From assembly GCF_027019125.1 (NCBI RefSeq), contig NZ_JALUXE010000027.1, forward strand, positions 186,001 to 250,000: a stretch of 64,000 bases of DNA, written 5' to 3'. This DNA is from Roseovarius sp. (GTDB lineage Bacteria; Pseudomonadota; Alphaproteobacteria; Rhodobacterales; Rhodobacteraceae). The notes beneath the pieces were generated by a model that was not told the DNA's origin, did not search any database, and saw only the letters and a list, made by a program, of their open reading frames with translations. The first letter of the stretch is position 1; each line of letters starts with the position of its first letter. Below, piece by piece: positions 11,308 to 27,149 of this stretch. A program made the position numbers and the translations under genes.

Positions 11308-11465
11308 ACCGTTGTCGGGCCATGCGCCCGCGGCTATCATCACCCTGTTGAATACAACCCTTTTCCTGATCCGCCCGGACCGATTGCAGGATTTACCCAG
11401 AATGCCCGCTTGTCCCACCCCTGCCAGATCCCATGCGCGCAACCCGTCGCGCAGGAGCTGAGGCC

Positions 11466-12272
11466 GTGCGTGGACTGGGGTTTCTCACACTCGCCGCCTC
11501 GATCTTCTGCGGCTTCGGCGCTGGCCAGATCGGTTTGACGCTGCTGACGCGCGGGGACGCACCGCCCCAGCCCGTCCAGATCACCGCTGCCCTGGCCGCT
11601 GTCGAGAATGCCGCAGAAGCGCCCTTGCCAGAGAGCTGGCCCCCTGTCTTCGACCCCTATGTGCCCGATCCGCCCAAGGCGCCGACCGTCGCCAAGAAGG
11701 TCGAGAAATATCGCCTTGTCGGGTTGGTCGCGGGCGGCGAGAGTGGCTGGGCCATTCTCACCGCGTCGGATGGTGACCGGCTGGTGCGCGCGGGCGACCG
11801 CTTGATCGGCGGCGAGACCGTGCTTGAAATCGTCCCGGATGGTGTCTGGATCGAGCGCGCCGCAGAGCGTGTTCTGATCGCCTTTGAAGAGACGCCCGAC
11901 GAGATGATGGCCCGGATGATGGTCAATGGCTCGGTGCAGGAAGATGAGGCCGAAATTCCGGCCAGCGCCTTTTCCGGCAGCGATCTGCGCCGTGTTCTGG
12001 GGCGCGCGGGCAGCGTGCGGATGGTCACGGTCGGCAGCAACGCAAACGAGGTCTTTCCCGAAATTCTATGGGTGCGCGAAGGGCAGGTTTACGATCTGAT
12101 CGGCCTGCGGCGTGGCGATCTCGTGCTGCGCGTTAACGGCTACTCTGTTTCCGATCCGGAAACGCTGGTGAACGCCAGACAGCTTTTGGCAGAAACCGAT
12201 GAATTCGCTGTCGAAATCATGCGCGGCGGTCAACGGCGCACCATTTCCGTGCGGATCACCGGGCGCAGCTAG
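11466..12272 (+). CDS. gspC: Type II secretion inner-membrane protein GspC
   Basis: GspC links the secretin GspD to the inner-membrane platform. The protein has one N-terminal membrane helix, a proline-rich linker (PPVFDPYVPDPPKAP), the homology region (YRLVGLVAGGESGWAIL onward, about residues 78-140), and a C-terminal PDZ-like domain (LIGLRRGDLVLRVNG). I prefer GTG 11466, with AGGAG at 11453-11457 spaced 8 nt, over the in-frame ATG 11433, which lacks a ribosome site. The rest of the gsp genes begin 8 kb downstream, after a five-gene insertion. About 268 aa. Confidence 0.88.
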   Translation: MRGLGFLTLAASIFCGFGAGQIGLTLLTRGDAPPQPVQITAALAAVENAAEAPLPESWPPVFDPYVPDPPKAPTVAKKVEKYRLVGLVAGGESGWAILTASDGDRLVRAGDRLIGGETVLEIVPDGVWIERAAERVLIAFEETPDEMMARMMVNGSVQEDEAEIPASAFSGSDLRRVLGRAGSVRMVTVGSNANEVFPEILWVREGQVYDLIGLRRGDLVLRVNGYSVSDPETLVNARQLLAETDEFAVEIMRGGQRRTISVRITGRS

Positions 12273-12402: not shown

Positions 12403-12571
12403 TCGCTTCTTGCAAATCCGGCAAATGAAGTAACATTACGGCCCGATCACGAAAATGTTATCGTTGTTCCACACAAGATTTTGTGTTGAGGTAATGATGT
12501 CGGGCGCGTCATTTTGGCGCTCTTGATCTACTACCAATGTCAATAAAGTGCAGTTTCGTGCGCTGAACGGG

Positions 12572-12583
12572 GAGCAATTGCTC
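12572..12583. promoter_or_regulatory. Perfect 12-bp palindrome GAGCAATTGCTC
   Basis: Self-complementary over all 12 bp, located about 250 nt upstream of the oxidase start. Candidate dimeric regulator site; no known consensus matched. Confidence 0.4.
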
Positions 12584-12603
12584 TAAGCTATTTAACAAAA
12601 TCT

Positions 12604-12620
12604 GCGGATCACGGATCCGC
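12604..12620. promoter_or_regulatory. Palindrome GCGGATC-ACG-GATCCGC
   Basis: Seven-base arms at 12604-12610 and 12614-12620 are perfect reverse complements around a 3-bp centre. Further short palindromes follow at 12668-12681 (TCGAG/CTCGA) and 12695-12709 (CGACC/GGTCG), so this segment is dense in dyad symmetry. Confidence 0.4.
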
Positions 12621-12829
12621 GCGGGCCACACATTACTCACCTCTACCGGCCTGTCATCCCAAGCAAATCGAGTTCGCTCGAAACGTACATAAAGCGACCT
12701 GATCGGTCGTTTGCACTAGGGGCTAGGGCCCTCCTTGCTCGCGGCATGTCTGGCGCGGGGTTGATGGTGTCATGTCTGGAGCGTGGCGCTGGTAATTTTT
12801 CGCAAGCTTTTTCTGCTGGAGGACAAAGC

Positions 12830-14725
12830 ATGAAACGAAGAGACGCATTAAAGCTCGGCCTAGGGGCTGCGGGCGCCACGGTGGCGGCATCGCAGGCTGG
12901 AGCGGTCGAGATCGAGCAATGGCCAGATAGTGCCGCGGAAGGGTTGCCACAAAGCGGCCTCGTATTCCCCGACACCTTTCAGCCGAGCATCGTCACACAG
13001 TCGAGCCCCGCAGTCGAGCCGTTCACGGCCCCGCTGAACATCATGCCGATCGCACAGCCGGTCGATCCCAACACCTTCGATCCGCCGATCGAGCCCGAGC
13101 GCCATCAGCGCTTTGACGATTTCCCGCCGCAAAAGCATTACGAAGAAGTGATGACCGAATTCCGGTGGAAGTATCACTGGCAGCCCCCTTACGGCGACGG
13201 CACTCCGGGCGTTGTCGGTCGGGATGGCGATCCGGACGTCGGATCCTGGCACTGGGGCTTCAACGGCATCACGCCGGGCGAGACCTATCACGCCTATTAC
13301 GGCGAACCGGTGTTCCTGCGCCGCAACAACCTGCTGCCCACCGTGGGGGCCGGCAATGTGACCTTCGCGTTGCCCTCGCCGACCATCCACCTGCACAACG
13401 GCCATACCGCATCCGAGTCGGACGGTATCCCGCAGGACTTCTTCAATCCCGGCGAATTCTGGGATCACCACTACGCCAACATTCCGGCGGGTACGCCGTT
13501 CAACTGGGATTTCGACAACACCGAGATCATGAATACCCTGTGGTATCACGATCACCGGCTCGATTTCACGGCGACCAACGTCTATGCGGGCTTCTCGGGC
13601 TTCTACCTCATCTTTGATGAGCGCGACTCGAACAACGAGCGCGATCGTAACCCGAATGCGTTCCGTCTGCCCTCGGGCAAATATGACATTCCGCTGATCC
13701 TGCACGATGTCATGTTCCAGCCCAACGGTCAGGTGATCTGGGACTTCTTCTCGCCCGATGGCACCACGCCGCATCCCGAACCGCGCCCCGAGCCGGTCGA
13801 GGTCGGCAACTCGCAGGGCACGCCGGATACGTTCGACTCGAACCGCCTGCAATACACCACGCAGGGCATGACGGGCGACAAGATCACGGTCAACCGGATC
13901 ATCCAGCCCTATCTCGATGTGGACCGTCGCAAGTATCGCTTCCGTTTCCTCAACGGCGGCCCGTCGCGTCTCTATCGTCTGGTGCTCAAGGTCGTGCCCA
14001 AGCCCGGTCGCGGCGAACCTTACTTTGACGACTTCATCGTGCTGTCGAACGATGGCAACCTGCTCGAGGCCCCGCTGGTCGAACCCAAGATCGACCTCTG
14101 GATCGCCAACCGCTTTGACGTCATCATTGACTTCTCCAAGTACAAGGATGGCGACAAGGTTCAGGTCTGGAACGATCTGGAAATCCGCGGCGATGGGGCT
14201 GGCCCGACCGGCTACACCCTCGAGGGCGAAAACATGATGCCTGTCATGGAATTCCGTTGCAAAGGCCGCAAGAAGCCCGATCCGTCGCGCGTTCCTGCAA
14301 CCATGCGCAAACTTCCGGAAATCCGCATGTCCGAAGTCCGCCGCAAGCGCCTGTTCGTCTTTGACTACGACAACGGCCTGTGGACGGTGAACGGCCGCCT
14401 GATGGATCCCAACCGTGTGGATGCCAAGATCGAGCAGGGTTCTGCCGAAATCTGGACCTTCCGCAACGAGGGCAACGCCTGGGCGCACCCGGTTCATACC
14501 CACTTCGAAGAGTTCCAGATCCTCGAGGTCAACGGTCGTCCGCCCAGTGCGGTAGAGCGTGCCCGCAAGGACGTGGTCTCGCTCGGGCCGGGTGACGAGG
14601 TGACATTCTTCAGCCGCTGGCGCGACTTCTTTGGCAAGCACGTGATGCACTGCCACAACGTCGTGCACGAAGACCACGCAATGATGATGCGTTGGGACAT
14701 CGTGGAGCCGGGTCAGGGTGACTGA
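12830..14725 (+). CDS. Tat-exported multicopper oxidase (CotA/bilirubin-oxidase type)
   Basis: A 631-residue laccase-like oxidase that would couple one-electron oxidation of a substrate to reduction of O2 to water. The N terminus has a twin-arginine signal (KRRDALKLG, then a short hydrophobic stretch). All four copper-ligand motifs are present: HLHNGH (unusual Asn in the HXHG motif), WYHDH, HPVHTHF and HCHNVVHEDHAMM, the last giving a Met axial ligand for the type 1 copper. Spacing resembles CotA. ATG 12830 has GGAGGA 7 nt upstream. It heads a cluster of exported redox proteins embedded between T2SS genes. Substrate (metal ion, phenolic or other) is not predictable. Confidence 0.93.
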   Translation: MKRRDALKLGLGAAGATVAASQAGAVEIEQWPDSAAEGLPQSGLVFPDTFQPSIVTQSSPAVEPFTAPLNIMPIAQPVDPNTFDPPIEPERHQRFDDFPPQKHYEEVMTEFRWKYHWQPPYGDGTPGVVGRDGDPDVGSWHWGFNGITPGETYHAYYGEPVFLRRNNLLPTVGAGNVTFALPSPTIHLHNGHTASESDGIPQDFFNPGEFWDHHYANIPAGTPFNWDFDNTEIMNTLWYHDHRLDFTATNVYAGFSGFYLIFDERDSNNERDRNPNAFRLPSGKYDIPLILHDVMFQPNGQVIWDFFSPDGTTPHPEPRPEPVEVGNSQGTPDTFDSNRLQYTTQGMTGDKITVNRIIQPYLDVDRRKYRFRFLNGGPSRLYRLVLKVVPKPGRGEPYFDDFIVLSNDGNLLEAPLVEPKIDLWIANRFDVIIDFSKYKDGDKVQVWNDLEIRGDGAGPTGYTLEGENMMPVMEFRCKGRKKPDPSRVPATMRKLPEIRMSEVRRKRLFVFDYDNGLWTVNGRLMDPNRVDAKIEQGSAEIWTFRNEGNAWAHPVHTHFEEFQILEVNGRPPSAVERARKDVVSLGPGDEVTFFSRWRDFFGKHVMHCHNVVHEDHAMMMRWDIVEPGQGD

Positions 14726-14770
14726 GCGGAAATCCTTACAGGAATTCTCTGAAAGATGAGAGGAAAAGAC

Positions 14771-15559
14771 ATGACAAACAGACGTCAATTCTTGGCCGGT
14801 CTTCCGGTCGCGGCGGCTGCTGGGATGACCGCCGGGTTTTACACCACGCCGGGTAATTCCAAAGAGCGCGCCGATGAGGCCCGCAAGGCCGCACTCGCGA
14901 AACTGCGCGAAACCAAGACAACCCTGCACCCCAACGACATGCCGGCGCTCTGCAATCCGGTCAACAGCGGTGGGGTCATCAACTCGGCGGTGAACGACTC
15001 GTTCCCCAATGTGATGATGGTCAATCAGGACGGTCTCGGGATGTCCTTCTACGAGGGCTTCATCGAGAACAAGGTCGTGATGATGCACTTCATGAGTCTG
15101 CGCGACGAAGCGCATTTTCCGATCACCCGTCGCATGGCCGACGTGGTGGCAGAACTGGGCGACAAGGTCGGGCGCGATGTGTTCGTGTATTCGATCAGCC
15201 GTGATCCCGAGCATGATACGCCTGCACGCATGCAGGCCTATGCTCAGGAACTCGGGGCGCCCAAGGGCTGGCATTTCCTGACCGGCACGCCGCAGCATTG
15301 CGCCGACCTCGCCTTCCGGATGTATCGCATGAGTCATTCGACCCTGCCCGGCAAGCGCAAGGTGGACGTGGTGTTCTACGGCAATGGCAGCGCCGGTCTC
15401 TGGGGATCGTTCCCCTGGGATATCCGGGCCGACGATGCCGCCAGCCGTGTCACCTGGGTCATGCCGCAGCCCGCGCCGAAAGTGGGCGAGAAGCTGCGCC
15501 GGGCCGGTCCGCGTGTGTTCGATCTCAAGGATCCGCGCAACCACAACCGCGAAGTCTGA
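14771..15559 (+). CDS. Tat-exported SCO1/SenC-like protein lacking the copper-binding CXXXC
   Basis: A 262-residue exported protein. NRRQFLAG and the hydrophobic stretch after it form a twin-arginine signal. Residues from about 95 match the SCO1/SenC thioredoxin fold, including SISRDPEHDTPARMQAYA and WHFLTGT. Where SCO proteins have TSCXXXCP, this one reads FMSLRDEAHFPI, so both copper cysteines are gone; a His remains in the later MSHST segment. ATG 14771 follows GAGAGGA, better than ATG 14756. It likely acts as a partner of the oxidase instead of a classical copper chaperone; that role is inferred. Confidence 0.75.
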   Translation: MTNRRQFLAGLPVAAAAGMTAGFYTTPGNSKERADEARKAALAKLRETKTTLHPNDMPALCNPVNSGGVINSAVNDSFPNVMMVNQDGLGMSFYEGFIENKVVMMHFMSLRDEAHFPITRRMADVVAELGDKVGRDVFVYSISRDPEHDTPARMQAYAQELGAPKGWHFLTGTPQHCADLAFRMYRMSHSTLPGKRKVDVVFYGNGSAGLWGSFPWDIRADDAASRVTWVMPQPAPKVGEKLRRAGPRVFDLKDPRNHNREV

Positions 15560-15566
15560 TCCCGGA

Positions 15567-15582
15567 CCCCGGGAAACCGGGG
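15567..15582 (+). terminator. Intercistronic GAAA-loop hairpin
   Basis: CCCCGG (15567-15572) and CCGGGG (15577-15582) form a 6-bp stem closed by a GAAA-containing loop, with no T run. It may pause RNA polymerase or stabilise the upstream mRNA. Confidence 0.4.
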
Positions 15583-15609
15583 CCAGAACAGTATTTTGAA
15601 TCGGAGACA

Positions 15610-17571
15610 ATGAAAATGTTTCGTAAATCCATAAGACTGGCTGCGGTGATGGCATTGCCCGCCTCGGCCTTGGTTGGGGGGGCGCCCGCTTGGGCCCAGA
15701 CACCCTTTGACCTCAACATGATGTGCAACGTCTCGGGACATGCCAACGGTGGTCAGCAACCGCGCGTGCCATTCGAGACCCGCACCACGAACGCGGTGGT
15801 CGACGGCGACGGCACCGTGATCACTCCGGCCACCCGCACCTATCTCAAGACCGCGGATGGCTATTCGGTCTTCCCGGAGGGGGACAGCTTTGGGACGAAC
15901 CCGCCCAACCTGCTGCCCACCATCTACGAGAATGCCAAGACGTGCCGGGGCAATGAAATCCCGAACACTCTGCCGTCCACACCGGACAATCCCTACAACC
16001 TGCATGACGACCCGGTGACACGGCCGATCGACAAGACCTCGCCCACGGATGATCTTGACTTCATCATGGACAAACTCGAGGCGCTGTCGGAACCGCACGA
16101 GATCTGCCGCAATTTCCGCGGCAACAGTCACTGCTACCAGTATCCGCGCCGGGTCAATCCGGGTGAAATGCGGACGCTGGCGCGCCACGCGGTCGATATC
16201 ATCGAGGGCAATCAGCTGAGCGGTCCGTTCGCGGGCCGGGAATACGAAGGCTTCCCCTTGCTGCACTATCTCGGCGGACTCAAGACCAAGTCTGTCGATC
16301 CGGCGACCAAGTCGGTCACGATCAATCAGATCTGGTATGACAACCACATCGAGTCCGATACGAACTACATCGACCCCGAGTCCGTCACCAACGAGGAATG
16401 GTCGATCCACTACGTGATCAAGATCCTCAACCGCGGCCACGAAGACTTTGCGCCCTACGCCATGTTCTTCGATGACTGGACCGAGTTCGATTTCACCGAC
16501 ATGGGTGGGCCGGACATGACCGCTGGTGGCACCGCGTTCCCGCGCGTTCCCAACATCGGCATGGACCAGACCTTCTTCCCGATGGAAGAGGGATTGGAAT
16601 ATACGCTCAACATGAAGATGCCCCCGGCACGCTTCTGGAACCTGACCTACCACTGGGGCTGGCGTCAGCACCCGCCGCGGGTTCAGGTGGTCGAGAACAT
16701 GCGCGTGCCGCTGCGGAATGGCGCACCGCGCAACGCTGCAGAGATTGGCGTATTCGGTGAAAACCCGCGCGCCAGCGAAGAGGCCAAACTTGCCGCTATC
16801 GGCATGATCGGTGACACCGCTCCGGCCAAGCGCATGTGGCAGATGTTCCGCGAATTGGGTGGGATGACCGTCAACCGCAAGAACAAGCACTTTGGCGGTG
16901 GTCTCAACGGCTCGATCATCCAGGCGCAAATGCACCTGATCCGTCAGGCGTTCGACGACTGGAGACATCGTGGTCGCCTGCCCACCGGCTATGAAATGGC
17001 CGAGGATGCCGATGTCACGGTGCTGTTCCTCAACAACACCATGTACGGGCAGCTCAAGGGTCATAACGGCCGGGCCGAAAGCCGGATGGATCCGGGCGTC
17101 TGGGACAAGCGCGGCGACAAGGTCAATATTCAGCTTCTGAATGGCGACTACTACGTGCACGCCTACGTTCTGGTGGACTTTGGCGGTCTGCGGGGCTGGG
17201 AGAATACCTTCCATAACACGCTGCCGATCGGTGGGGCTGGCCCGATGTTCACCTTCGGTCGGAACTACTTCTGGATCCACGTTGCAGGGGGTGGACCGAT
17301 CCCGATCCCGCCGGCAGCGCGTCCGGATGGTGCACCGCGGACTCCGGCTAATGACTCGATCTGGCAGGTCGCCAATGGCAATGGCATCGGCCGCGGCAAC
17401 TCCGAGTTCGCCTGGGGCGGTATGCAGCAGGCCATGAGCGACTATGTGAACGTCGACGGTATCGGCGAACACCACCTCGAAGTCGAGTTCAGCTATGAGC
17501 CGTCACGCCGCCTGCGGATGTATCAGTTCGATGCTCTGCACCATGATGTCGCCGTGTGGTCTGTCCACTAA
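15610..17571 (+). CDS. Large secreted protein of unknown family
   Basis: A 653-residue protein with a Sec signal peptide (residues 1-30, cleavage after PAWA). I recognise no domain. The mature protein is rich in aromatic residues, Asn, Pro and His, has four cysteines in the N-terminal third (MCNVS, KTCRG, EICRN, HCYQY), and no further membrane segment. A conserved-looking stretch is TYHWGWRQHPPRVQVVENM. ATG 15610 follows GGAGAC. It lies between two SCO-like genes in the oxidase cluster and is followed by a strong hairpin. It may be the structural or substrate-binding partner of the multicopper oxidase; this is inference from position only. Confidence 0.75.
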   Translation: MKMFRKSIRLAAVMALPASALVGGAPAWAQTPFDLNMMCNVSGHANGGQQPRVPFETRTTNAVVDGDGTVITPATRTYLKTADGYSVFPEGDSFGTNPPNLLPTIYENAKTCRGNEIPNTLPSTPDNPYNLHDDPVTRPIDKTSPTDDLDFIMDKLEALSEPHEICRNFRGNSHCYQYPRRVNPGEMRTLARHAVDIIEGNQLSGPFAGREYEGFPLLHYLGGLKTKSVDPATKSVTINQIWYDNHIESDTNYIDPESVTNEEWSIHYVIKILNRGHEDFAPYAMFFDDWTEFDFTDMGGPDMTAGGTAFPRVPNIGMDQTFFPMEEGLEYTLNMKMPPARFWNLTYHWGWRQHPPRVQVVENMRVPLRNGAPRNAAEIGVFGENPRASEEAKLAAIGMIGDTAPAKRMWQMFRELGGMTVNRKNKHFGGGLNGSIIQAQMHLIRQAFDDWRHRGRLPTGYEMAEDADVTVLFLNNTMYGQLKGHNGRAESRMDPGVWDKRGDKVNIQLLNGDYYVHAYVLVDFGGLRGWENTFHNTLPIGGAGPMFTFGRNYFWIHVAGGGPIPIPPAARPDGAPRTPANDSIWQVANGNGIGRGNSEFAWGGMQQAMSDYVNVDGIGEHHLEVEFSYEPSRRLRMYQFDALHHDVAVWSVH

Positions 17572-17587
17572 GCGACCCGTGTAACAA

Positions 17588-17621
17588 GGGTTCCGGCGGA
17601 GATTTCCGCCGGAACCCCTTT
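17588..17621 (+). terminator. Strong hairpin between the unknown secreted protein and SCO1 genes
   Basis: GGGTTCCGGCGGA (17588-17600) pairs perfectly with TCCGCCGGAACCC (17605-17617), 13 bp with a 4-nt loop, followed by CTTT. It likely ends or attenuates the upper three-gene transcript and leaves about 36 nt before the SCO1 start. Confidence 0.7.
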
Positions 17622-17657
17622 CAATTTGAGACATTACTCTCTCGATGGAGACTCGAT

Positions 17658-18500
17658 ATGGCCGAATTCAAGACGGTTCTGCGCTTGGTATCCGCCTCCG
17701 CACTTGGTTGCGCGCTCCTCGCCTTCGCGGCCCCCGCCGTCGCCGATCATTCCGGACATGGGAACACCGACACCCACACAGAGGGGCATGACCACAGTGC
17801 CCCCAAGGCGATGGATCATTCTTCTCATTCGGCGGGCCACGATGCGCATGCCCAAGGACACGATGCGCATGCCCAAGGACACGATGCGCATGCCCAAGGA
17901 CACGAGGACCACGCCGCCGAACATCGCATGCCAGAGCATCTTGGCATGGATGAAGCCAACGGCAGCGAACTGGCCATGCGGCCCGACGGCTTTCAGTACA
18001 AAACCAGTGCCCAACACTACGAGATGCCGGATGTCACCCTGCGCAACCAGCTGGGCAAAAAGATCAATTTCCCGGAACTGATGGCCTATGACGGCCCGGT
18101 CCTGCTCAATTTCATCTTTACAAGCTGCGCCACCATCTGCCCGGTGATGAGCGCCACCTTTGGCCAAACCCAAGAGGACCTCGTGGCCATTGACGATTCC
18201 TACCTCATGGTCTCGATTTCGATCGACCCGGAATATGACACGCCCACGCGCCTGCGCGAATACGCAGAGCTGCACGCCGCGCGCGACAACTGGGTCATGC
18301 TGACCGGCCAGTTTGACGACATCTTTACCGTCGTGCGCGCCTTTGATGCGGTTTATAAGGGTGACAACAAGATGTATCACCGCCCGCTCACCTTCTTGCG
18401 CGCGAACAAGGACGCCCCATGGCTGCGTCTGGAGGGCCTGCTCGGTTCCGAAGAACTCGCTGAGGAATACAAGAAACTGCTGCATCCCGAGGTGAATTGA
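17658..18500 (+). CDS. SCO1/SenC-family copper chaperone with His-rich N-terminal repeat
   Basis: A 280-residue exported protein with a signal peptide ending near APAVADH. The thioredoxin-like SCO domain is intact: copper cysteines in FTSCATICPVM, SISIDPEYDTP, and the ligand His in MYHRPL. Between the signal and this domain is a metal-binding-like stretch full of His, including GHDAHAQ three times, encoded by three identical 21-bp units. SCO proteins deliver Cu to oxidases or act as thiol reductants. ATG 17658 follows GGAG at 17647. Its stop overlaps the next start (TGATG). Likely copper loader for the cluster. Confidence 0.9.
   Translation: MAEFKTVLRLVSASALGCALLAFAAPAVADHSGHGNTDTHTEGHDHSAPKAMDHSSHSAGHDAHAQGHDAHAQGHDAHAQGHEDHAAEHRMPEHLGMDEANGSELAMRPDGFQYKTSAQHYEMPDVTLRNQLGKKINFPELMAYDGPVLLNFIFTSCATICPVMSATFGQTQEDLVAIDDSYLMVSISIDPEYDTPTRLREYAELHAARDNWVMLTGQFDDIFTVVRAFDAVYKGDNKMYHRPLTFLRANKDAPWLRLEGLLGSEELAEEYKKLLHPEVN
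17838..17900 (+). repeat. Three perfect 21-bp tandem repeats in the SCO1 gene
   Basis: Units 17838-17858, 17859-17879 and 17880-17900 are identical and each codes HDAHAQG. The identity at every wobble position suggests recent expansion or copy-number slippage. Confidence 0.95.
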
Positions 18501-20188
18501 TGCACTTTCCAGCTTTTCGCGCCACGGTTCGGCGTCTTGGATTGGCCCTCGCCTTCGCTGCTGTCCCGCTATGGGCCGGGGCAGGGCAGGCGGGCGACGC
18601 CGAACTTGGCCGCAAACTCTATTGGGAGGGGATCGGTGCCGATGGCCAACCGATCACCGGCGTGACCCAGGGCGACGTCAAGGTCTCGGGCGCGCAATTC
18701 TCCTGCGTCAACTGCCACCGCCCCAGTGGCTTTGGCACATCCGAGGGCGGCAACTACGTGCCCCCCATCATCGGCTCGGTGCTGTTCGAAAAAAAGACCC
18801 CGAACCGCAACCGCATGTTCAAGGACCTCTATCAAGAGGTGCAGCCGCCCGGTTTCTGGGCGCGGGTGCGCGCGCCACGTATGCGCCCGGCCTATGATGA
18901 CGAACTGCTCGCGCGGGCGCTCAAGGATGGTGTGGATGCAGGAGGGCATGTGTTCGACCCGATCATGCCGCGCTATGACCTGAGCCCACAGGATGTGGCC
19001 AATCTCTCGGCCTTCATCAAGACGCTGTCGGTCGAGATCGACCCCGGCGTGACCGACCGCGAGATCCACCTCGCCACCATCATAGATCCCGGTGCCGACC
19101 CTGAGGCGGCAGATGCGATGATCCGCACGCTCGAACTGTTTTTCGAGTGGATGAACAAGGACACCGAAGGCGACACCCGCAATCCGACCTTCTCGCCAAA
19201 CTATCGCTCCAATTTCATCTCGGCCTATCGTTACTGGAACCTGCATGTCTGGCGGCTCGAAGGGGCGCCCGAGACATTGCGCGCCCAGCTCGAGGCGAAA
19301 TACGCCGAACAGCCCGTGTTCGCCACCGTGAGCGGGCTGGTCGAAGGGCCATGGGATGAAATCGGCGCCTTCTGCGATGACAAGCGCCTGCCTTGCGTCT
19401 TTCCGAACACCGAATTGCCCACGCCCGGCGAAGGGCGTTACGGCTATTCGATTTTCTTCAACCGTGGCCTCTCGCTTGAGGCCGAAGCGCTCGCGCTTTA
19501 CCTCGGAGATCAGGAAACCGCGCCCACCCGCGTCGTTCAATTGCACGGCGCAGGGCCGCAGGGCACCCGCCCGGCCGAAGCCTTCACAAACACGATGGCC
19601 ATGGCCCTGCCCGACACGCCTGTGGAAACCCGGCTCTATGAAGGGGCCGACGATCTGCGCTCGGCTCTTGCCGCCGCAAAGCCCGACACGACCCTCGTGA
19701 TCTGGCCGCAGGACGTGGACGAAGCGGTTGCCGTTCTGGCTGCCAATCCGCCCGCCGCGTCGCGTTTCTATCTGCCGTCTGCGGCCAAGGAACCGGCGCT
19801 CGCGGCCTTCTCTCCGGCTCTGGTGGAACAGGCCCGGCTTGTCTGGCCCTATGACGAGCCAGGCTCCTACCATCCGAACAAATACCGCATCCGCGGCTGG
19901 ATGCACACGCGGCGGCTCGAGGTCACGCATCCGCGCATCCAGTTGCAAACCTACTATGCACTGACCATGATTCAGTTCGGTCTCATGCACGCGATTAATG
20001 ATTTCTACCGTGATTATGTGCTAGAAATCATCGAACATGAGGCAGAGAATGAGCTTAACCCTGGCACGCATCCGGAGCTCGCTCTCGGACCGGGACAGCG
20101 ATTTGCCTCCAAGGGGGCCTTTATCGCGCAACTCGTTCCAGAAGAGCGTGTCGGCTATCGGGTCGTCAGTGAGTGGATCGTACCCTAG
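18500..20188 (+). CDS. Cytochrome c fused to a periplasmic-binding-protein-like domain
   Basis: A 562-residue exported protein. A signal peptide (residues 1-31, AGAGQA) is followed by a monoheme cytochrome c domain with CVNCH at residues 69-73 and a probable axial Met in DPIMPRYDLSPQDVANLSAF. From about residue 190 a long second region resembles type 1 periplasmic binding proteins (branched-chain amino-acid receptor fold), with alternating strand/helix segments such as PTRVVQLHGAG and TTLVIWPQDVDEAVAVL. No membrane anchor. It overlaps the SCO1 stop by TGATG and ends before a hairpin with a T run. It could pass electrons to the oxidase or sense a ligand. Confidence 0.8.
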   Translation: MHFPAFRATVRRLGLALAFAAVPLWAGAGQAGDAELGRKLYWEGIGADGQPITGVTQGDVKVSGAQFSCVNCHRPSGFGTSEGGNYVPPIIGSVLFEKKTPNRNRMFKDLYQEVQPPGFWARVRAPRMRPAYDDELLARALKDGVDAGGHVFDPIMPRYDLSPQDVANLSAFIKTLSVEIDPGVTDREIHLATIIDPGADPEAADAMIRTLELFFEWMNKDTEGDTRNPTFSPNYRSNFISAYRYWNLHVWRLEGAPETLRAQLEAKYAEQPVFATVSGLVEGPWDEIGAFCDDKRLPCVFPNTELPTPGEGRYGYSIFFNRGLSLEAEALALYLGDQETAPTRVVQLHGAGPQGTRPAEAFTNTMAMALPDTPVETRLYEGADDLRSALAAAKPDTTLVIWPQDVDEAVAVLAANPPAASRFYLPSAAKEPALAAFSPALVEQARLVWPYDEPGSYHPNKYRIRGWMHTRRLEVTHPRIQLQTYYALTMIQFGLMHAINDFYRDYVLEIIEHEAENELNPGTHPELALGPGQRFASKGAFIAQLVPEERVGYRVVSEWIVP

Positions 20189-20377: not shown

Positions 20378-21130
20378 CTAGACCAAAGGCCAGAGCCAGA
20401 CCAGACCCGCCGCCGCGGCGAGATAGGCACCAAAGGCAATCGCCAGATCGCCCTCGGGCCGCGCGCCACGCCAGAGCGCCATGACCCCGGCGGTCGCCAT
20501 CGCCAGAAACGCGGCGGTCAAGGTCACACTCGGCAGCGCCATCACCCCGAGGCCCGCGCCAATCCCCGCCATCAGCTTGACATCGCCCAGCCCCAGCCCT
20601 TCGCGCCCGCGCAGCATCCGATAGCCGATCCGCAGTGCCAGAAACGCCCCCGCGCCGATTGCCGCTCCGACAAGCGCACCCCAAAGATCGCGGACCGGAT
20701 CTTCCCAAGCCATCACCATCCCGGTCAGAAAAAGCGGTGCAGTGAGCCCGTCCGGCAGTCGAAACGCGGCCAGATCACACAGAACCAACCCCATCAAGAG
20801 CCAGAGCCAGAGCGCCCCCAAAACCATGTGCAGCGGCGATTGCGCGACCCAGACCGCCAGCACCGCCAGCGCCATGCCGGCCACTTCGGTGTAAAACAGC
20901 CGCTTGGGGATACGCACGCCACAGGACCGGCACTTTCCTCCCAGCCACAGCCAGGACAGAACCGGCACCATGTCGCCTGCCCCGATCCGCTCGCCGCATG
21001 ACCGGCACCGAGACCGCGGTCCGACAATGCTCTCGTCGCGTGGCAACCGATCTGCCCAGGCCGCCAGAAACGATCCCATCGCCGCCCCTGTCAAGATCAG
21101 GAAAAAGGCGAGTGGGGCGGTGGCAGGCAT
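20378..21130 (-). CDS. gspO: Prepilin peptidase / N-methyltransferase GspO (PilD family)
   Basis: Inner-membrane aspartyl protease that cleaves and methylates the GspG-H-I-J-K pseudopilins encoded next door. 250 aa with about eight hydrophobic segments. The zinc-binding pair CRSCGERIG and CRSCGVRIP marks the N-terminal methylase domain; the two catalytic aspartates are in LCDLAAFRLPD and the GLGDVK motif. ATG 21130 has GGAGG upstream on the minus strand. It diverges from gspG with a 114-bp gap. Confidence 0.93.
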   Translation of the reverse strand: MPATAPLAFFLILTGAAMGSFLAAWADRLPRDESIVGPRSRCRSCGERIGAGDMVPVLSWLWLGGKCRSCGVRIPKRLFYTEVAGMALAVLAVWVAQSPLHMVLGALWLWLLMGLVLCDLAAFRLPDGLTAPLFLTGMVMAWEDPVRDLWGALVGAAIGAGAFLALRIGYRMLRGREGLGLGDVKLMAGIGAGLGVMALPSVTLTAAFLAMATAGVMALWRGARPEGDLAIAFGAYLAAAAGLVWLWPLV

Positions 21131-21244
21131 AGGACCTCCAATGCGGGAAAAACGGGGCAGGGGCCACAGCGGCGATTGTCAGGGCGTTGCGCTTACTCTA
21201 TGATTCATCACGTAGTCTATACGCATTTACGGACAGATTTTACC

Positions 21245-21700
21245 ATGCAAATCAATGTGTCACGCCGCTCGTCCCGCGCGTCTGCCGATGCTGGCTTTTC
21301 ACTACTCGAACTGATGGTCGTGGTGGTCATCATGTCCATTCTTGCACTGGTCGTCATGCCGCGCATCATCGACCGGCCCGATCAGGCCCGCGCCGCGCGG
21401 GTGCAGTCGGATCTTGCGGTGCTGGCGGGCGCGGTCAAGCTCTACAAGCTCGACAATTTCCGCTATCCCACCACCGAACAGGGGCTGCGCGCGCTGGTCG
21501 AGGCGCCCACCGCCTCGCCGGTGCCACCCAATTATGCCGCCAACGGCTATATCGACCGCTTGCCGCAGGATCCTTGGGGCAATGAATACCAATACCTGCA
21601 ACCGGGCGTGCATGACGAGTTTGACATCTTCACGCTCGGGGCGGATGGGGTCGCAGGGGGCACCGGCCCCGACGCGGACATAGGGTCATGGGGCGAATAA
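21245..21700 (+). CDS. gspG: Major pseudopilin GspG
   Basis: 151 aa. A 17-residue leader ends at Gly before FSLLELMVVVVIMSILALVV, with Glu at +5, the prepilin peptidase site. The mature part has the GspG signature YKLDNFRYPTTEQGL and QDPWGNEYQY with a C-terminal acidic calcium-binding loop (GADGVAGG and beyond). ATG 21245 is chosen for a normal leader length, although the ribosome site is weak. It overlaps gspH by 13 nt and starts the gspGHIJKLMN run. Confidence 0.95.
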   Translation: MQINVSRRSSRASADAGFSLLELMVVVVIMSILALVVMPRIIDRPDQARAARVQSDLAVLAGAVKLYKLDNFRYPTTEQGLRALVEAPTASPVPPNYAANGYIDRLPQDPWGNEYQYLQPGVHDEFDIFTLGADGVAGGTGPDADIGSWGE

Positions 21701-22176
21701 CCACCGATCCCGAGGCTGGCTTTACCCTTCTGGAAATGGTCGTGGTCGTGGCCGTAATCGCCGTGCTCTCGGTCACGGCGACCTTTTCCATCACCGACCG
21801 CAGCCGGGGCGAAGGCGACGTGATCCGCTTTGCCGCCGCCTACGACCGCCTGCGCGACGCGGCCATTCTCGGGGCCACGCCGCAGGGTATCATCCTTGTG
21901 CCCGGTGGCTGGCAGGTGCTCGTGCCGCCTGCCCCTGGTGCAACAGAGGACGGATGGCAACCGCTTGGCCGAGAACAGAAATTTCGGGGCGAAGCGCGGT
22001 TCGAGGGGCCCGATGGCGCGCTCCTGCCGCGCGAATTGCCGCGTGCCCCGCACCCTGACATCACCTTTCTGCCGGACGGTCAGGTCAGCCCCTTCGAGGT
22101 CACATTCATCGGCAAAGACAGCCTCAATCGCTGCCGGTCTGCCGGGCTTCTCGGTCTCGACTGCGAGGCGACATGA
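21688..22176 (+). CDS. gspH: Minor pseudopilin GspH
   Basis: 162 aa. The leader MGRITTDPEAG precedes FTLLEMVVVVAVIAVLSVTA with Glu at +5. The remaining domain is short and beta-rich with RFAAAYDRLRDAAIL, as in GspH. It overlaps gspG at the 5' end and gspI by ATGA at the 3' end. Confidence 0.9.
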   Translation: MGRITTDPEAGFTLLEMVVVVAVIAVLSVTATFSITDRSRGEGDVIRFAAAYDRLRDAAILGATPQGIILVPGGWQVLVPPAPGATEDGWQPLGREQKFRGEARFEGPDGALLPRELPRAPHPDITFLPDGQVSPFEVTFIGKDSLNRCRSAGLLGLDCEAT

Positions 22177-22529
22177 CGGATCGCGGCGTCACGCTACTGG
22201 AACTGGTGATCGCGGTCTTCGTGCTCTCTCTTGGCACCATCGCGGCGCTGCGCAGCGCCGATCAGGCTGGCCGCGCTTTGGGCGGCGAGGCGGCGCGCGT
22301 CATGGCGCTTGAGGTGGCGCTGAACCGGGCCGAGGAATACCGCCTCCTCGGCGCGCGACAGGCCTCGACCCTGCCGCGCAGCGTCACTTTCGGCCCCCAT
22401 CAATGGCAGCTCGAGATCACCGAGGCCACGACCCGCGCCGGTTTCACCGAGGCCACGATCATCGCGCGCGCCCCCGATCAGCCCGGCGCGCGGTTGGTCG
22501 TCATCGCTCAGACCGAGGTGGTGCGATGA
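22173..22529 (+). CDS. gspI: Minor pseudopilin GspI
   Basis: 118 aa. A very short leader (MTDRG) precedes VTLLELVIAVFVLSLGTIAA with Glu at +5, typical of GspI. ARVMALEVALNRAEEYRLLG resembles the conserved GspI helix region. Both ends overlap neighbours by 4 nt (ATGA), suggesting coupled translation with gspH and gspJ. It forms the pseudopilus tip with GspJ and GspK. Confidence 0.9.
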   Translation: MTDRGVTLLELVIAVFVLSLGTIAALRSADQAGRALGGEAARVMALEVALNRAEEYRLLGARQASTLPRSVTFGPHQWQLEITEATTRAGFTEATIIARAPDQPGARLVVIAQTEVVR

Positions 22530-23146
22530 CCCGCTCCGCCATGGCAGACCGGGGTCTGACGCTGCTTGAACTGGTGGCGGTGCTGGCGATCTTTTCCCTT
22601 GTCGCGGTCATGGGGCTTCAGGCGCTCAGCGGCATGATGCGCGCCCGCGACCGTCTGACCGATGCCGATGAACAGGCGGCGGCGCTTGCGCGCGGTCTCA
22701 CGCTTCTGCGTGAGGATCTCAAATCCGCCGCTGCCCTGCCTTTCTGGCCGCCGGGGGCGCTCGATCCGGAACCGGCCTTTCTCGACCTCACCGGGCCTGC
22801 CGGATGGTTCGCCCTCTCGACCGCCGGGCGCGCCGTACTGCCCGAGGTTCAGTCGGCAGGACAGGCGCGCGTGATCTGGCGCCATGACCGCGACGCCGAC
22901 CGCCTCACACGCCAGATCTGGCCGGTGCTGCGCCCCGCTTCCGATCTGGCACGCGGCCCGGAAACCACCGTGTTTGAACGGGTCGCGGGCCTGCGCCTGC
23001 GTGCCTATGCCGGACCGGAAGAGGGCTGGGTCACGGATTGGGGCGTGCCCGATCTCGTCCCACGCCCCGCCCTGCCCAAAGCCATCGAAGTGGAAATCGA
23101 GTCGCTGGCCTATGGCCCGCTGCGCATCGTGGTGGCCTATCCATGA
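22526..23146 (+). CDS. gspJ: Minor pseudopilin GspJ
   Basis: 206 aa from ATG 22526, which overlaps the gspI stop (ATGA). Leader MTRSAMADRG precedes LTLLELVAVLAIFSLVAVMG with Glu at +5. A larger periplasmic domain follows, as usual for GspJ. Longer in-frame upstream starts lie inside gspI and were not used. Confidence 0.9.
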   Translation: MTRSAMADRGLTLLELVAVLAIFSLVAVMGLQALSGMMRARDRLTDADEQAAALARGLTLLREDLKSAAALPFWPPGALDPEPAFLDLTGPAGWFALSTAGRAVLPEVQSAGQARVIWRHDRDADRLTRQIWPVLRPASDLARGPETTVFERVAGLRLRAYAGPEEGWVTDWGVPDLVPRPALPKAIEVEIESLAYGPLRIVVAYP

Positions 23147-24078
23147 CCCGGCCCGGCGCACAGGATCGCGGTGTCGCACTGCTCAATGCGCTGCTTCTGG
23201 TCGCTGCGATTTCGGCCGTGGCCGCCGGTCTTATGCTGCGCGCCGAAACCAGCCGCACGCGCGTCGAGCATCTGCAAGTCAGCCAGCAGGCGGCCCTGCA
23301 TCTCGACGCCGCCGAATGGCTGATCGACCCGGTGCTGCGCAGCGATTGGGAACGCGACCAGAACCTTGACCATCTGCTCGAAGGCTGGTCGCTGGCCGGA
23401 TTCGAGGCCGATATCGACCGCGCCCAGATGACCGGCACCATCACCGATCTGCAAGGGCGCTACAATATCAACAGCCTGAGCGACCCGTCGGATCTCAACG
23501 CGGTGCAATCCTTTGACCGGCTCTTGGCCAGCCTTGGCCTGCCGCTGACGCTTGGCCGCGACATCGCCGGGTTCATTCAGGCACGCGGCCCGGCCCAGAC
23601 GGCCGAATATGCCAGCCGCCCCTTGCCCATCCTGCCTGCGGGCGCGCCGCTTGACCGGATCGAAGAGTTGCGCCTCGTCAACGGCATGACCGCCGAGGCC
23701 TATGCCCGGCTCTTGCCCTATGTGGCGGCTCTGCCCCCCGGTGGCGGTCTCAACGTCAACACCACCTCGCCCGAGGTTCTGGGTGCGATGCTGCCCGGCA
23801 CCAATCCCGCTGGAATAGCCCTGCTGATCGCGGAACGCGGCCGCGTGCCCTTTGCCGACCGCGAGGATTTCACGACCCGCGCCGAGACCTTGCTGCACCC
23901 GCGCGTGATCACTCAATCCCTGGCCCCCGATGGCGGCTTTGTCACGGCCTCGGATTGGTTCGAGGCGCGCTTCGATGTAAGGCTTGACGGGCGCATCCAA
24001 AGCCGCATCCTGACGGTCGAACGCTCCACGCTGACCGGGGCCGTCACCCTCAGACACCGCCGGACCGTCACCCCATGA
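23143..24078 (+). CDS. gspK: Minor pseudopilin GspK
   Basis: 311 aa, the largest pseudopilin. The leader ends in QDRG before VALLNALLLVAAISAVAAG; Glu +5 is absent (Asn), which is normal for GspK. The alpha-domain is visible with DLQGRYNINSLSD and LNVNTTSPEVLGAMLPG, both characteristic. It caps the pseudopilus tip. Overlaps both neighbours by ATGA. Confidence 0.92.
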   Translation: MTRPGAQDRGVALLNALLLVAAISAVAAGLMLRAETSRTRVEHLQVSQQAALHLDAAEWLIDPVLRSDWERDQNLDHLLEGWSLAGFEADIDRAQMTGTITDLQGRYNINSLSDPSDLNAVQSFDRLLASLGLPLTLGRDIAGFIQARGPAQTAEYASRPLPILPAGAPLDRIEELRLVNGMTAEAYARLLPYVAALPPGGGLNVNTTSPEVLGAMLPGTNPAGIALLIAERGRVPFADREDFTTRAETLLHPRVITQSLAPDGGFVTASDWFEARFDVRLDGRIQSRILTVERSTLTGAVTLRHRRTVTP

Positions 24079-25277
24079 CCCTGACCCTCACCCGAAAATC
24101 GCGCGGCACGACAGCGCCCTTGCCGGTCCATGACCTGACCGGCGATGTGCCGCCGCCGCGCGGGCCTTTCGTGGCCTCGGTGCCGGGGATGGCCACGCCG
24201 CTGGTGCCGCTCGATCTGCCGACCGCGCTCAAGGGGCAGGCCCGTGACCGCGTGGCCCGCCGCCAGTTGCGCGATGCCTATGGCGGCACCGAGACGGGGC
24301 TCGATATTCGCCCCGCACGGCTTGGGGCCGCCCCCGACCAATGGACGCGGCTCTTGCTGACCGATGCGGGCGACCGGCGCGACTGGCTGCATGCGCTCGG
24401 GGCCTTTGCCCCGCTGTGCCGCGCGGTGCTGCCGGATTACCTCTGCCTGCCGGCGGCCCCCGATCTCTGGGTGATCCAGACGACGGCGACAGCCGTCATC
24501 GCCCGCCTTGGCCCCGAGGATGGCTTTGCCGCCGAACCGGATCTGGCGCTGGCCCTGCTGCAAGAGGCCGCGCGCAATGGTGGCCCCCGCGCCATCCTGC
24601 GCCAAGGCCCGGCGCAGCCTGTGATTGATGCGTTTCTTACGGGGCTAAACCTGCCGATCTGCGCCGATCCCGGCGATCTCGCGGCGCATGGCGTGGCCGC
24701 GCCCACCCGCTTTGCCCATAACGAACTCGCCCTCGACCTTGCCCGCGATCCCGGTGCCGAGCGCGCCGAAATGCGCCGCACCCTCAGCCGCCTGCGCCTG
24801 CCCTTGGCACTGGCGGTGCTTGGCCTCATCGGCTGGATCACAGCCACGATGATCGAAACCCGCGCCCTTGATGCACAAGGATTGGCCTATCGCCAGAACG
24901 CCGAACGCATCCTGCGTCAGGTGATGATCCCCACCGGCCCTATTCTCGACATCCGCAGTCAGGTCGCACAGGTCATGGACCGCGCCCGCAACGCCAGCTC
25001 TGATGTAGAGGCCGAGGCGCGCCCGCTCGATGTGCTGCGCCGCGCCGGTGCGGTGATGGCCAATCACGAAACCACCATCACGCGGGTCAGCTATCAGCCC
25101 GGCGCGGGGCTGGTGATCGACCTGCAGATCAGCGATTTCGCGGCGCTCGATGCGCTCGTCAGTGACCTGCGCAATGCCGGCACGGAGGCGCGCGTCGCCC
25201 AATCCGTCACCCGCGAGAATACCGGCGTCGAGGCGGTGCTCGCCATGGCCGTCACCGAAGGCGGACCCAAGCGATGA
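24075..25277 (+). CDS. gspL: T2SS assembly-platform protein GspL
   Basis: 400 aa bitopic inner-membrane protein. The cytoplasmic part (to about residue 235) would bind the GspE ATPase; one hydrophobic helix at about 240-262 (LPLALAVLGLIGWITATMI) is followed by a periplasmic ferredoxin-like domain ending with a LISDL-type repeat region. Sequence similarity to classical GspL is low by eye, so identity rests largely on position between gspK and gspM. Overlaps both. Confidence 0.85.
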   Translation: MTLTLTRKSRGTTAPLPVHDLTGDVPPPRGPFVASVPGMATPLVPLDLPTALKGQARDRVARRQLRDAYGGTETGLDIRPARLGAAPDQWTRLLLTDAGDRRDWLHALGAFAPLCRAVLPDYLCLPAAPDLWVIQTTATAVIARLGPEDGFAAEPDLALALLQEAARNGGPRAILRQGPAQPVIDAFLTGLNLPICADPGDLAAHGVAAPTRFAHNELALDLARDPGAERAEMRRTLSRLRLPLALAVLGLIGWITATMIETRALDAQGLAYRQNAERILRQVMIPTGPILDIRSQVAQVMDRARNASSDVEAEARPLDVLRRAGAVMANHETTITRVSYQPGAGLVIDLQISDFAALDALVSDLRNAGTEARVAQSVTRENTGVEAVLAMAVTEGGPKR

Positions 25278-25789
25278 GCGCCCTGATGGACAGATTGACC
25301 GGCTTTCTGCTGGGGCTCAGCCGCCGCGAACGCTGGCTCGTCGCGGTATTGGCGCTCATCGCGCTGCCGGTTGGCGCGGTCTATGGCATTGCCCTGCCTC
25401 TGGCCCAATCGCGCGACGCCGCCCGCGCCGCCGTGGCCGAGGCGCGCGCGACCGAACTTTGGGTGGCCGATCAGGCGGTGCAGTTTGCCACGCTCGCGCG
25501 GGACGCCGGTCAGCGGCCCCAGGTGACGCGCGCCACCACCCCCATCGGCATCAGCGGGATCGAGGCCAGCCTGCGCGATGCCGGCCTGCGCGAAGCGGCC
25601 GCCGAACTGGCCAACGCGGCAGACGGCGGTATCACCCTGCGGTTCGACGCGGTGCGCTTTACGCAGTTGGCCGAATGGCTGACCGCGCAGAACGATACAT
25701 GGGGCTATGATCTGGCGGGCTTTACCTTTGAACGCGGCGCGCGCACCGATGTTGTGGCCGCCGACCTGCGTCTGGTGCCGCTGCAATGA
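25274..25789 (+). CDS. gspM: T2SS assembly-platform protein GspM
   Basis: 171 aa with one N-terminal membrane helix (WLVAVLALIALPVGAVYGIA), a coiled region, and a small periplasmic ferredoxin-like domain ending near LRLVPLQ. This is the standard GspM architecture and it partners GspL. It overlaps gspL and gspN by 4 nt each. Confidence 0.87.
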   Translation: MSALMDRLTGFLLGLSRRERWLVAVLALIALPVGAVYGIALPLAQSRDAARAAVAEARATELWVADQAVQFATLARDAGQRPQVTRATTPIGISGIEASLRDAGLREAAAELANAADGGITLRFDAVRFTQLAEWLTAQNDTWGYDLAGFTFERGARTDVVAADLRLVPLQ

Positions 25790-26550
25790 AACGTCTGGTT
25801 TTGATCCTTCTGGGCCTCGTTCTTGGCCTTGCGCTGGCGGCACTCAGCGAGGGGCGCTTGACCCACCTGCGCAGCGCGGCACCGGGGCTGGTGCCCGGCT
25901 GGCTCGCCGGGGCCGAGGATCACTCGTCGCTCTGGCGTGGCCAGCGGCGGGGCCTGCAAATGCGGCCGTGGCCGGTCGCGGGCGATGTGACCTGGCGTTT
26001 TGACCAGATCGAGGGTCTGGGCGGGCGCTGGTCTGTCACGCTGTCCGGGCCGGGGCTGTCGGGGCAGGGGGCGCTTACGCTCCCCCTTGCGCTCGATCAG
26101 GCAGAGCTGCGCGGCGGGCGATTGGACATCCTGCTCGGCGATTGGCCCGCGCTCATCGACGGCTGGCCCCTTGGCGGACGGGTTCTGGCAGAGGGGCTAA
26201 GCGCGGATATGACCCTGCCGGGCCGGCGCTTGACACGGCTCGGCGCCGTCATCGACTGGTCCGGCGCGCGGATCAATGGCGTAGAGATCGGCACGGCCGA
26301 GGCGGTTCTGACTTCGGACGCCGGCACATGGCGCGCGCCCTTTTCGCTCACCGGCGACGTGATCAACGCGCGCGGCACGCTCTCTGGGCGGTTTGGCGAT
26401 CCCATGGCACAGCTTGACCTGCGCATCGACCCCGTGGGCGAGCTGCCAGAGGGCTGGCTGCGCGCCTTGGATCAGTCCGGCGAGGCAGCGGACAGCGGTT
26501 GGCAGATCACCCGCGATGTCGACCTTGGCGCAGGCTGGCCGCTCTTCTGA
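25786..26550 (+). CDS. gspN: T2SS protein GspN
   Basis: 254 aa with a single N-terminal membrane helix (LVLILLGLVLGLALAALSEG) and a beta-rich periplasmic domain with repeated GL-rich strands (LSGPGLSGQGALTLPLAL). GspN is a non-universal component whose job is not settled. It is last in the gspG-N run and its stop faces the convergent lipoprotein gene. Confidence 0.8.
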   Translation: MKRLVLILLGLVLGLALAALSEGRLTHLRSAAPGLVPGWLAGAEDHSSLWRGQRRGLQMRPWPVAGDVTWRFDQIEGLGGRWSVTLSGPGLSGQGALTLPLALDQAELRGGRLDILLGDWPALIDGWPLGGRVLAEGLSADMTLPGRRLTRLGAVIDWSGARINGVEIGTAEAVLTSDAGTWRAPFSLTGDVINARGTLSGRFGDPMAQLDLRIDPVGELPEGWLRALDQSGEAADSGWQITRDVDLGAGWPLF

Positions 26551-26624: not shown

Positions 26625-27149
26625 CTAACCGCCCGCCCCCAAACGCTTGAGGTCCCGGGCAATATCCGCCCGACGACTGGCCATGGCCCCCAGCGGATCA
26701 AGGCTGTCGTCAATTGCCAGCATCTCCTTGAGCGCGGCATCGGCCGCGCGCAGCTTGGCAACGGTCGCAGCCCCCGTGCGCCCCGCGCCCAGATCTGCCA
26801 ATGCGCTTTCATGCTGCGCCGTGCCGCTCACCGCCAGCGCCGCCGCGCGGTCGCTGCCCTTGCTGCCTGCCGCGAGCGCGCCGGCCACTTGTGCGGCCTC
26901 GTCATAGCGGCTCGCCCGCAAGAGAGCGTGGGCGTATTCAAGTCTGAGACGCGGCTCAAGCGGCCCCGCTGTCTGGATCAACGCCGCATAACTGCGAATG
27001 GCACTGTCATAATTGCCCTGCTCCAGCGCCTTGCGCGCAGAGCTGTACTTGCGCTGAAAATCCGCGCCTTCGCTGATCGCGCCCGGCTCACAGCCTGCGA
27101 GCGCCATGAGAACAGCCAGACATAGCAAAGGCTTGTTTGAAATCGGCAT
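26625..27149 (-). CDS. TPR-like lipoprotein lodged within the T2SS cluster
   Basis: 174 aa with a lipoprotein signal (LMALAGC lipobox, Cys at about residue 20) and helical repeats that resemble two TPR units (YSSARKALEQGNYDSAIRSY, LEYAHALLRASRYDEAAQV). It is transcribed opposite to the gsp genes between gspN and gspD. Position and lipoprotein nature suggest a secretin pilotin or assembly factor, analogous in role but not sequence to GspS. This role is inferred. Confidence 0.75.
   Translation of the reverse strand: MPISNKPLLCLAVLMALAGCEPGAISEGADFQRKYSSARKALEQGNYDSAIRSYAALIQTAGPLEPRLRLEYAHALLRASRYDEAAQVAGALAAGSKGSDRAAALAVSGTAQHESALADLGAGRTGAATVAKLRAADAALKEMLAIDDSLDPLGAMASRRADIARDLKRLGAGG

Follow-up and report, generated by a model that had tools for sequence, protein, structure and literature searches.

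An iodide-oxidase gene cluster joined with a type II secretion system in Roseovarius, and its probable route of export

Results and Discussion

A stretch of 64,000 nucleotides from a Roseovarius sp. genome, referred to below as the window (positions 186001-250000 of contig 27; the genome comprises 3.77 Mb in 34 contigs), carries five exported copper/heme genes in one direction at 12830-20188, between gspC (11433-12272) and the other genes of a type II secretion system (T2SS), which extend to 32018. By homology, the five genes are the Roseovarius form of a known kind of gene cluster, the iox (iodide oxidase) cluster, with the order ioxA-E. We consider it probable that the iodide-oxidase operon has been joined with a T2SS of its own in one unit, and that the iodide oxidase (IOX) is exported through that T2SS. 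The proposal draws on homology, gene order, co-occurrence within the genus, an empty site, the place of gspC, and linkage of iox to gsp genes in other lineages. A sequence-only reading of the window had placed five such genes between gspC and the rest of the T2SS; the open reading frames (ORFs) and Pfam matches agree with it in coordinates and direction.

Identity of the gene cluster and its substrate

IoxA, a multicopper oxidase (MCO), is 84% identical over 100% of its length to the enzyme of Roseovarius sp. A-2, and 97% identical to that of R. mucosus DSM 17069 (L008). The identity of IoxC is 41% to strain Q-1, 42-43% to Iodidimonas muriae, and 68% to Roseovarius sp. A-2. The I. muriae locus (L028) is collinear, with identities of 58/34/43/47/42% for A-E, and the SCO1/SenC genes ioxB and ioxD, together with ioxE, follow the same order as in the published iox cluster.

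Extracellular location, a composition of IoxA plus IoxC, and iodide oxidation have been published for relatives of this cluster. In the excerpts consulted of a 2022 review (PMC9415286), IOX is described as an extracellular, O2-dependent enzyme containing IoxA and IoxC, which makes I2 from iodide and comes from brine and seawater isolates. The same excerpts present ioxB, D and F as SCO1/SenC homologues, call the function of IoxC and IoxE unclear, and describe the characterised IOX of Roseovarius sp. A-2 (IoxA plus IoxC) as similar. Because of the homology to this published extracellular enzyme, the substrate, which the sequence-only reading had given as unknown, is most likely iodide.

Another substrate in this host, such as Mn(II) or phenolics, with iodide oxidation as a side activity, seems fairly unlikely to us. 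IOX also oxidises ABTS (2,2'-azino-bis(3-ethylbenzothiazoline-6-sulfonic acid)) and phenolic compounds (excerpts of PMC9415286), and homologues are found in methanotrophs, Nitrosomonas and Acidobacteria, where iodide would not be an obvious substrate. This is countered by the close identity of IoxA to the A-2 enzyme, by the production of triiodide in iodide medium by R. mucosus DSM 17069 (excerpts of PMC7696734), and by a catalytic efficiency for iodide 2-5 orders above that of fungal laccases, as cited in the part consulted of a 2018 paper (PMC5928188). Manganese oxidation had been suggested by analogy to an MCO of Pseudomonas putida said to depend on T2SS; a single literature search on the MCO/T2SS link gave no P. 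putida paper by title or start of abstract and did not confirm the analogy.

It is highly improbable that the cluster encodes an ordinary periplasmic copper-detoxification oxidase of the CueO/CopA type that lies in a T2SS locus by chance. An MCO accompanied by SCO proteins would suit such a role, and copper raises IOX production in strain Q-1 (excerpts of PMC5928188), but the characterised homologues are extracellular (excerpts of PMC9415286). CueO, bilirubin oxidase and CotA are among the PDB relatives of IoxA and share with it the MCO family and copper motifs. IoxA nevertheless lies far below the equivalog cut-offs of CueO (118.5 bits against 525 in NCBIfam) and PhsA, has a partner protein, IoxC, and differs from CueO in its other partner genes as well. 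Neither IoxC nor the cytochrome fusion is known to be part of CueO/CopA systems.

The ioxABCDEF clusters of Iodidimonas (strain Q-1, I. muriae, I. gelatinilytica) share with the present locus the A-E order and the nearby gsp genes. The cluster is located between gspC and gspO in Roseovarius, whereas it is divergent from gspE in Iodidimonas. A second ioxD-like gene follows ioxE in I. muriae, where ioxF is expected; none is found directly 3' of ioxE here, and three other SCO matches are present elsewhere in the source genome. For Iodidimonas an extracellular IOX of IoxA and IoxC has been published. Roseovarius sp. A-2 (L021) and R. mucosus DSM 17069 (L008) possess the same locus and arrangement, with the difference that in A-2 (L021/G502) the gspD above the cut-off is on another contig than gspC-iox-gspO-N. 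In comparison with R. mucosus, ioxC-D-E are more diverged than their surroundings: divergence at fourfold sites is 31-37% for ioxC-D-E (15610-20188), 15-19% for ioxA-B, and 5-23% for the gsp genes compared, perhaps a mosaic created by recombination.

Co-occurrence with the T2SS and the empty site

A total of 84 genomes of the genus Roseovarius were searched for IoxC and GspG, the latter at a threshold of E up to 1e-20. The genus is assigned from the coordinates of the R. mucosus and A-2 loci, which reappear among these genomes as G489 and G502. IoxC matches were present in 16 genomes and full length in 14. Every one of these 14 genomes encodes a single GspG, which lies on the contig of ioxC at a distance of 3.5-3.7 kb, whereas GspG is present in only 5 of the 70 remaining genomes (65 without GspG). 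In one of the five, G538 (72% complete), ioxE adjoins gspO near a contig end (L109), so that this genome most likely contains a cut-off iox locus. T2SS without iox nearby was found in the genus in G470, G480 and G528. In the wider family, sampled with 394 genomes at nearly one per genus, GspG is present in 52 and IoxC in 2, so that a T2SS on its own is more frequent than iox. The co-occurrence check proposed with the sequence-only reading is thus strongly positive in the genus. Moreover, the 12 fetched loci of the Roseovarius type with enough upstream sequence all show an identical gene order, which is therefore not due to chance.

The site of the block was also examined in the seven genomes lacking iox in which the EamA gene shares 74% identity or more with its counterpart on the left flank of the block. 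In G490 (L134) the flanks of the block are adjacent: a FGGY kinase gene, a 442-aa gene (in pieces), EamA and a 400-aa gene are followed after 97 bases by a regulator-like ORF, modA and the subsequent genes. Most of the flanking genes are 84-98% identical; the 442-aa gene, the 400-aa gene, modA and the gene next to modA are at 48-78%. No gsp or iox match was found in the 20 kb of this locus. Four further loci (L135, L136, L138 and L139) show the left side of the block only, without gsp or iox matches. Remnants at the block site were found in the L137/L140 pair, namely a gspF remnant in G549, and in G507 (73% complete) part of gspD, gspE, gspF and ioxE together with pieces matching ioxA and gspC; neither genome has full-length IoxC or GspG. 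The empty site and the remnants indicate that the block can be present, absent or decayed as a whole.

Position of gspC and phylogeny of the T2SS

The usual Rhodobacteraceae T2SS, with the order gspO-GHIJKLM-TPR-CDEF (TPR, tetratricopeptide repeat), has the same components as the locus here, and the prepilin peptidase and TPR genes are in the same place. It has gspC beside gspD, in contrast to the present locus, where gspC stands apart, five cargo-type genes are included, and the proteins fall into a separate clade. For comparison, 20 stretches were used, five from the genus (including the cut-off locus L109) and 15 from other genera; a gspC was recognised in 17 of them, in each case beside gspD. 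It directly precedes ioxA in all 12 iox loci reaching upstream, at a distance of 557 bases in the window, and no gspC was found beside gspD in the ten of these loci that also extend to gspD. The source genome contains one GspG and one GspC match. GspC contacts both the cargo and the secretin of a T2SS, and its relocation may matter for the choice of cargo. A tree built from GspG+K+L+M places the 14 iox-linked rows in one clade with an SH-like approximate likelihood ratio (SH-aLRT) support of 100, apart from the T2SS of G470, G480 and G528.

Linkage of iox and gsp genes in other lineages

A scan of GTDB genomes with an IoxC alignment was performed, and the best 80 of 95 relatives, corresponding to 79 distinct loci, were typed with profiles built from the window and these loci. 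They comprise 46 loci with ioxABCDE, 19 with ioxABC only, and 14 partial or other loci. The Roseovarius-type loci have gsp genes in their flanks in 14 of 14 cases. Among the other 32 five-gene loci, five possess firm T2SS neighbours (L026, L028, L044, L046 and L052) and one is doubtful (L061). The latter was not counted because its gspG-like ORF differs from the GspG above the cut-off in its genome. Within the partial or other loci, gspD and gspK are located downstream in L027 and L039; L022 has only a prepilin peptidase gene, and was not taken as firm since this gene is near a contig end and gave no NCBIfam hit at 1e-10. NCBIfam ranks a T2SS family first for nine of ten neighbours tested, the exception being L022. 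No T2SS neighbour was found in the 19 three-gene loci, nine of which have long flanks.

The arrangement gspC-iox-gspO is found in 15 rows including the window, which form one clade (SH-aLRT 96). A gspE divergent from ioxA occurs in three rows scattered in one six-row clade; for two of the unlinked rows of that clade, the upstream region needed to decide is missing. Two rows have iox followed by gspE, and two have iox followed by gspD. Parsimony requires seven changes between the linked and unlinked states when L022 is treated as linked. As a rough yardstick, under a 1% chance that a T2SS lies near a random gene, which is our own assumption and is applied to loci that are not independent, the probability of at least five linked loci in 32 is 1.6e-5.

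Several of our results weigh against export of IOX through the adjoining T2SS. The tie is read here from genomes, and the 2022 review, in the excerpts consulted (PMC9415286), reports that gsp genes flank iox in Iodidimonas and calls their need for IOX secretion unclear. In 26 of the 32 five-gene clusters outside the Roseovarius-type group, no gsp gene was found in the fetched flanks, many of which are short; even among the 18 loci with long flanks on both sides, only L028 and L052 are firmly linked. Presence of a T2SS anywhere in the genome was rejected as a marker of five-gene loci, as it does not differ between these (25 of 31) and three-gene loci (15 of 19), counted with L016 left out and with two locus pairs sharing a genome. 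Within the genus, G473 and G534 carry a divergent five-gene cluster (A-E identities to the window of 40/29/38/37/34% in L103) and no GspG at E 1e-20; they contain only a GspD-like secretin below the cut-off, of a kind also present in iox genomes. In addition, the co-occurrence in the genus goes back largely to one inherited block, so that the Fisher p values (3.7e-12 as counted; 3.2e-11 when G538 is reassigned and both divergent clusters are scored as evidence against linkage) are too small and overstate the link. The claim that the five genes would not occur widely without T2SS neighbours thus fails in part, and holds inside the Roseovarius-type group.

These observations would also fit an association by history only, in which a shared block explains the co-occurrence without a function, IOX leaves the cell by vesicles, lysis or surface shedding, and the T2SS serves other cargo. 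T2SS without iox nearby in G470, G480 and G528 conforms to this. We nevertheless regard it as unlikely. The gsp-iox arrangements vary in gene and strand (gspC and gspO around the cluster, gspE divergent, gspE downstream, gspD downstream), and one ancestral block is therefore no full explanation. Furthermore, gspC adjoins ioxA rather than gspD, and G507 and G549 retained only remnants of the block. Export of IOX by the adjoining T2SS is accordingly likely rather than established, as judged from genome comparison.

The scan also revealed the whole ioxABCDE set in Nitrosomonas SJ634 and Nm51 (L061 and L064); the presence of the full set in ammonia oxidisers was left open by a 2025 paper, in the part of it consulted. 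Ferruginivarius sediminum (L026) has tandem iox clusters, ABCDE and then ABC near the end of the locus, by divergent gspE, F, G and H. The long IoxC frames of L103 and L104 (G473 and G534) have 838 and 845 codons.

The five proteins and a proposed mechanism

All five iox genes are on the forward strand. IoxA (12830..14725, 631 aa) begins with MKRRDALK, a twin-arginine start, and matches Pfam Cu-oxidase_2 and _3. Its His, Cys and Met residues of four copper motifs are invariant in an alignment of 18 sequences, and we take them to be those of the usual MCO copper motifs; the twin arginines are kept in at least 90% of the 18 sequences. IoxB (14771..15559, 262 aa) begins with MTNRRQFL, also a twin-arginine start, and matches Pfam SCO1-SenC. 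It had been called Cys-less, which is incorrect as it has cysteines; what is missing, here and in 67 of 68 relatives, is the CxxxC copper motif. IoxB can be regarded as SCO-like by its sequence and is not assigned as a copper chaperone. IoxD (17658..18500, 280 aa) is of the SCO1 type (Pfam SCO1-SenC) with a His-rich N-terminal stretch, and the CxxxC characteristic of SCO1/SenC chaperones is present here and in all 52 relatives from the fetched loci.

IoxC (15610..17571, 653 aa), the partner protein, has no Pfam family. Alignment of 113 sequences reveals invariant His354, His644, His645 and the last residue His653, and no invariant Cys. Its AlphaFold2 model is good (predicted local distance difference test 85.5, predicted template modelling score 0.87). 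Fold searches with a first and a deeper model both gave cupredoxin-like lists with weak scores; the model may tentatively be called cupredoxin-like, and no cupredoxin fold is assigned.

IoxE (18500..20188, 562 aa) contains a c-type cytochrome domain (Pfam Cytochrom_C, CVNCH) and a domain resembling Leu/Ile/Val-binding proteins; CxxCH is found in 49 of 51 sequences. The fusion of a cytochrome c with a periplasmic binding protein (PBP) that had been read from the sequence is supported as a remote homology: a profile of 30 sequences matched cytochrome subunits of dehydrogenases (best E 2.2e-5) and, over its positions 270-496, Leu/Ile/Val-binding proteins (best E 0.0017), although the PBP half was not seen by Pfam, and a single-sequence search of PDB found nothing.

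That the T2SS exports IOX, that IoxD loads copper and that IoxE has a part in the process are inferences. IoxA would be folded and then exported by the twin-arginine translocation system, and IoxD would help to load its copper in the periplasm. IoxA together with IoxC would cross the outer membrane via the T2SS, and the gene for GspC, the subunit that contacts the cargo, lies next to the cargo genes. Outside the cell, IOX would use O2 to oxidise iodide to I2. What the sequence-only reading suggested, an oxidase module that acts outside the cell, has SCO-type proteins of its own and adjoins its exporter, is still the best interpretation; the role of IoxE as electron partner is a guess.

Gene content of the secretion locus

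The iox and T2SS genes together occupy about 20.6 kb (11433-32018). The gene at 11433..12272 (+), which encodes the inner-membrane protein of the T2SS, is the only GspC match of the genome; GspC (T2SSC) and PDZ are the best matches of its product, both under the curated cut-offs. Downstream of ioxE, the prepilin peptidase gene gspO (20378..21130, above the Pfam cut-off) is on the minus strand. It is followed on the plus strand by the major pseudopilin gene gspG (21176..21700, above the NCBIfam cut-off), gspH (21688..22176), gspI (22173..22529), gspJ (ORF 22403..23146), gspK (ORF 23038..24078), gspL (24075..25277) and gspM (25274..25789). The gspG coordinates are those of the ORF, in which the GspG domain starts at residue 40, so that the true start is probably further in. 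GspH, GspI and GspJ are best matches under the NCBIfam cut-off, GspK and GspL are above it, and GspM is above the Pfam cut-off. An ORF at 25786..26550 (+) is at the position expected for gspN, with no family match. A TPR protein gene (26625..27149, minus strand) has counterparts at this position in many T2SS loci of the Rhodobacteraceae. The series ends on the plus strand with the secretin gene gspD (27403..29352, above the NCBIfam cut-off), the ATPase gene gspE (29356..30810) and gspF (30807..32018), the last two being best matches under the NCBIfam cut-off. By Pfam and NCBIfam, the T2SS set comprises secretin, ATPase, GspF, pseudopilins G-K, GspL, GspM, GspC and prepilin peptidase. Beyond the block, near its right-hand border at 32473-35069 of the window, are genes for molybdate transport, namely modA and a gene for an ABC ATPase that has a TOBE domain.

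A candidate leader RNA upstream of ioxA

The gap between gspC and ioxA measures 550-686 bases in 12 loci and is partly conserved. A block of the TCACGAAAATGTTA..GTTGT type at 12447..12470 (+), conserved in 13 aligned sequences, may be an operator or promoter element. A structured RNA leader core follows at 12570..12682 (+), with three modelled hairpins and one unmodelled. The three hairpins pair in 97.6% of cells, and both-side changes occur in 6 of 19 pairs. Of 500 shuffles, at most 1 matches the real alignment on four of five measures; on the remaining measure 18 do so. Slid versions of the structure pair in at most 44.6%, a comparison that favours the observed version as the structure was read from the same sequences. 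The alignment of the gap contains an additional conserved hairpin, CTCGCGGCA..GGCGCG, at 12738..12760 (+), with which both-side changes occur in 8 of 27 pairs.

Under the stricter filters, a covariance model matched 14 of the 84 genus genomes once each. These 14 are the very genomes that have full-length IoxC, and the remaining 70 gave no match; 13 of the 14 had supplied training sequences. The independent match, in G508, adjoins the EamA gene on a contig that does not carry ioxC. No match was found in 57 other fetched loci, T2SS-only loci and that of I. muriae included, although in some of the 57 the sequence preceding ioxA is missing. A comparison with Rfam, up to E 1, gave no match to the leader. 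Since the minimum free energy calculated for 12560-12838 does not fall below that of shuffles (z -0.33), the case for a leader is based on covariation and distribution only. A hairpin at 12765-12791 that resembles an attenuator was discarded because it is not kept in the alignment, and no sigma-70-like promoter was found in 12150-12900. The element may be a regulatory leader for the iox operon. A wider proposal, which we put forward tentatively and at less than even confidence, is that the T2SS is dedicated to one oxidase complex, with gspC relocated to the front of the operon that encodes the cargo and the unit gained or lost whole, and that the operon is under a new, lineage-only class of leader RNA, perhaps sensing copper or iodine stress.

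Implications

The association of gsp with iox as such is already known in part, from Iodidimonas. This study adds the embedded arrangement, the gain or loss of the whole unit at once, the unusual position of gspC and the leader; on the latter two no literature search was made. Our literature search, which did not cover the primary IOX papers of 2012 and 2015, found no paper testing the role of gsp genes in IOX secretion. The question whether gsp genes secrete IOX would be easily testable in a culturable Roseovarius with this locus. If the proposal is true, the locus would offer a clear example of a T2SS linked to a single cargo; the unusually placed gspC would be a handle on cargo choice, and the leader a candidate regulatory RNA for the iox operon.

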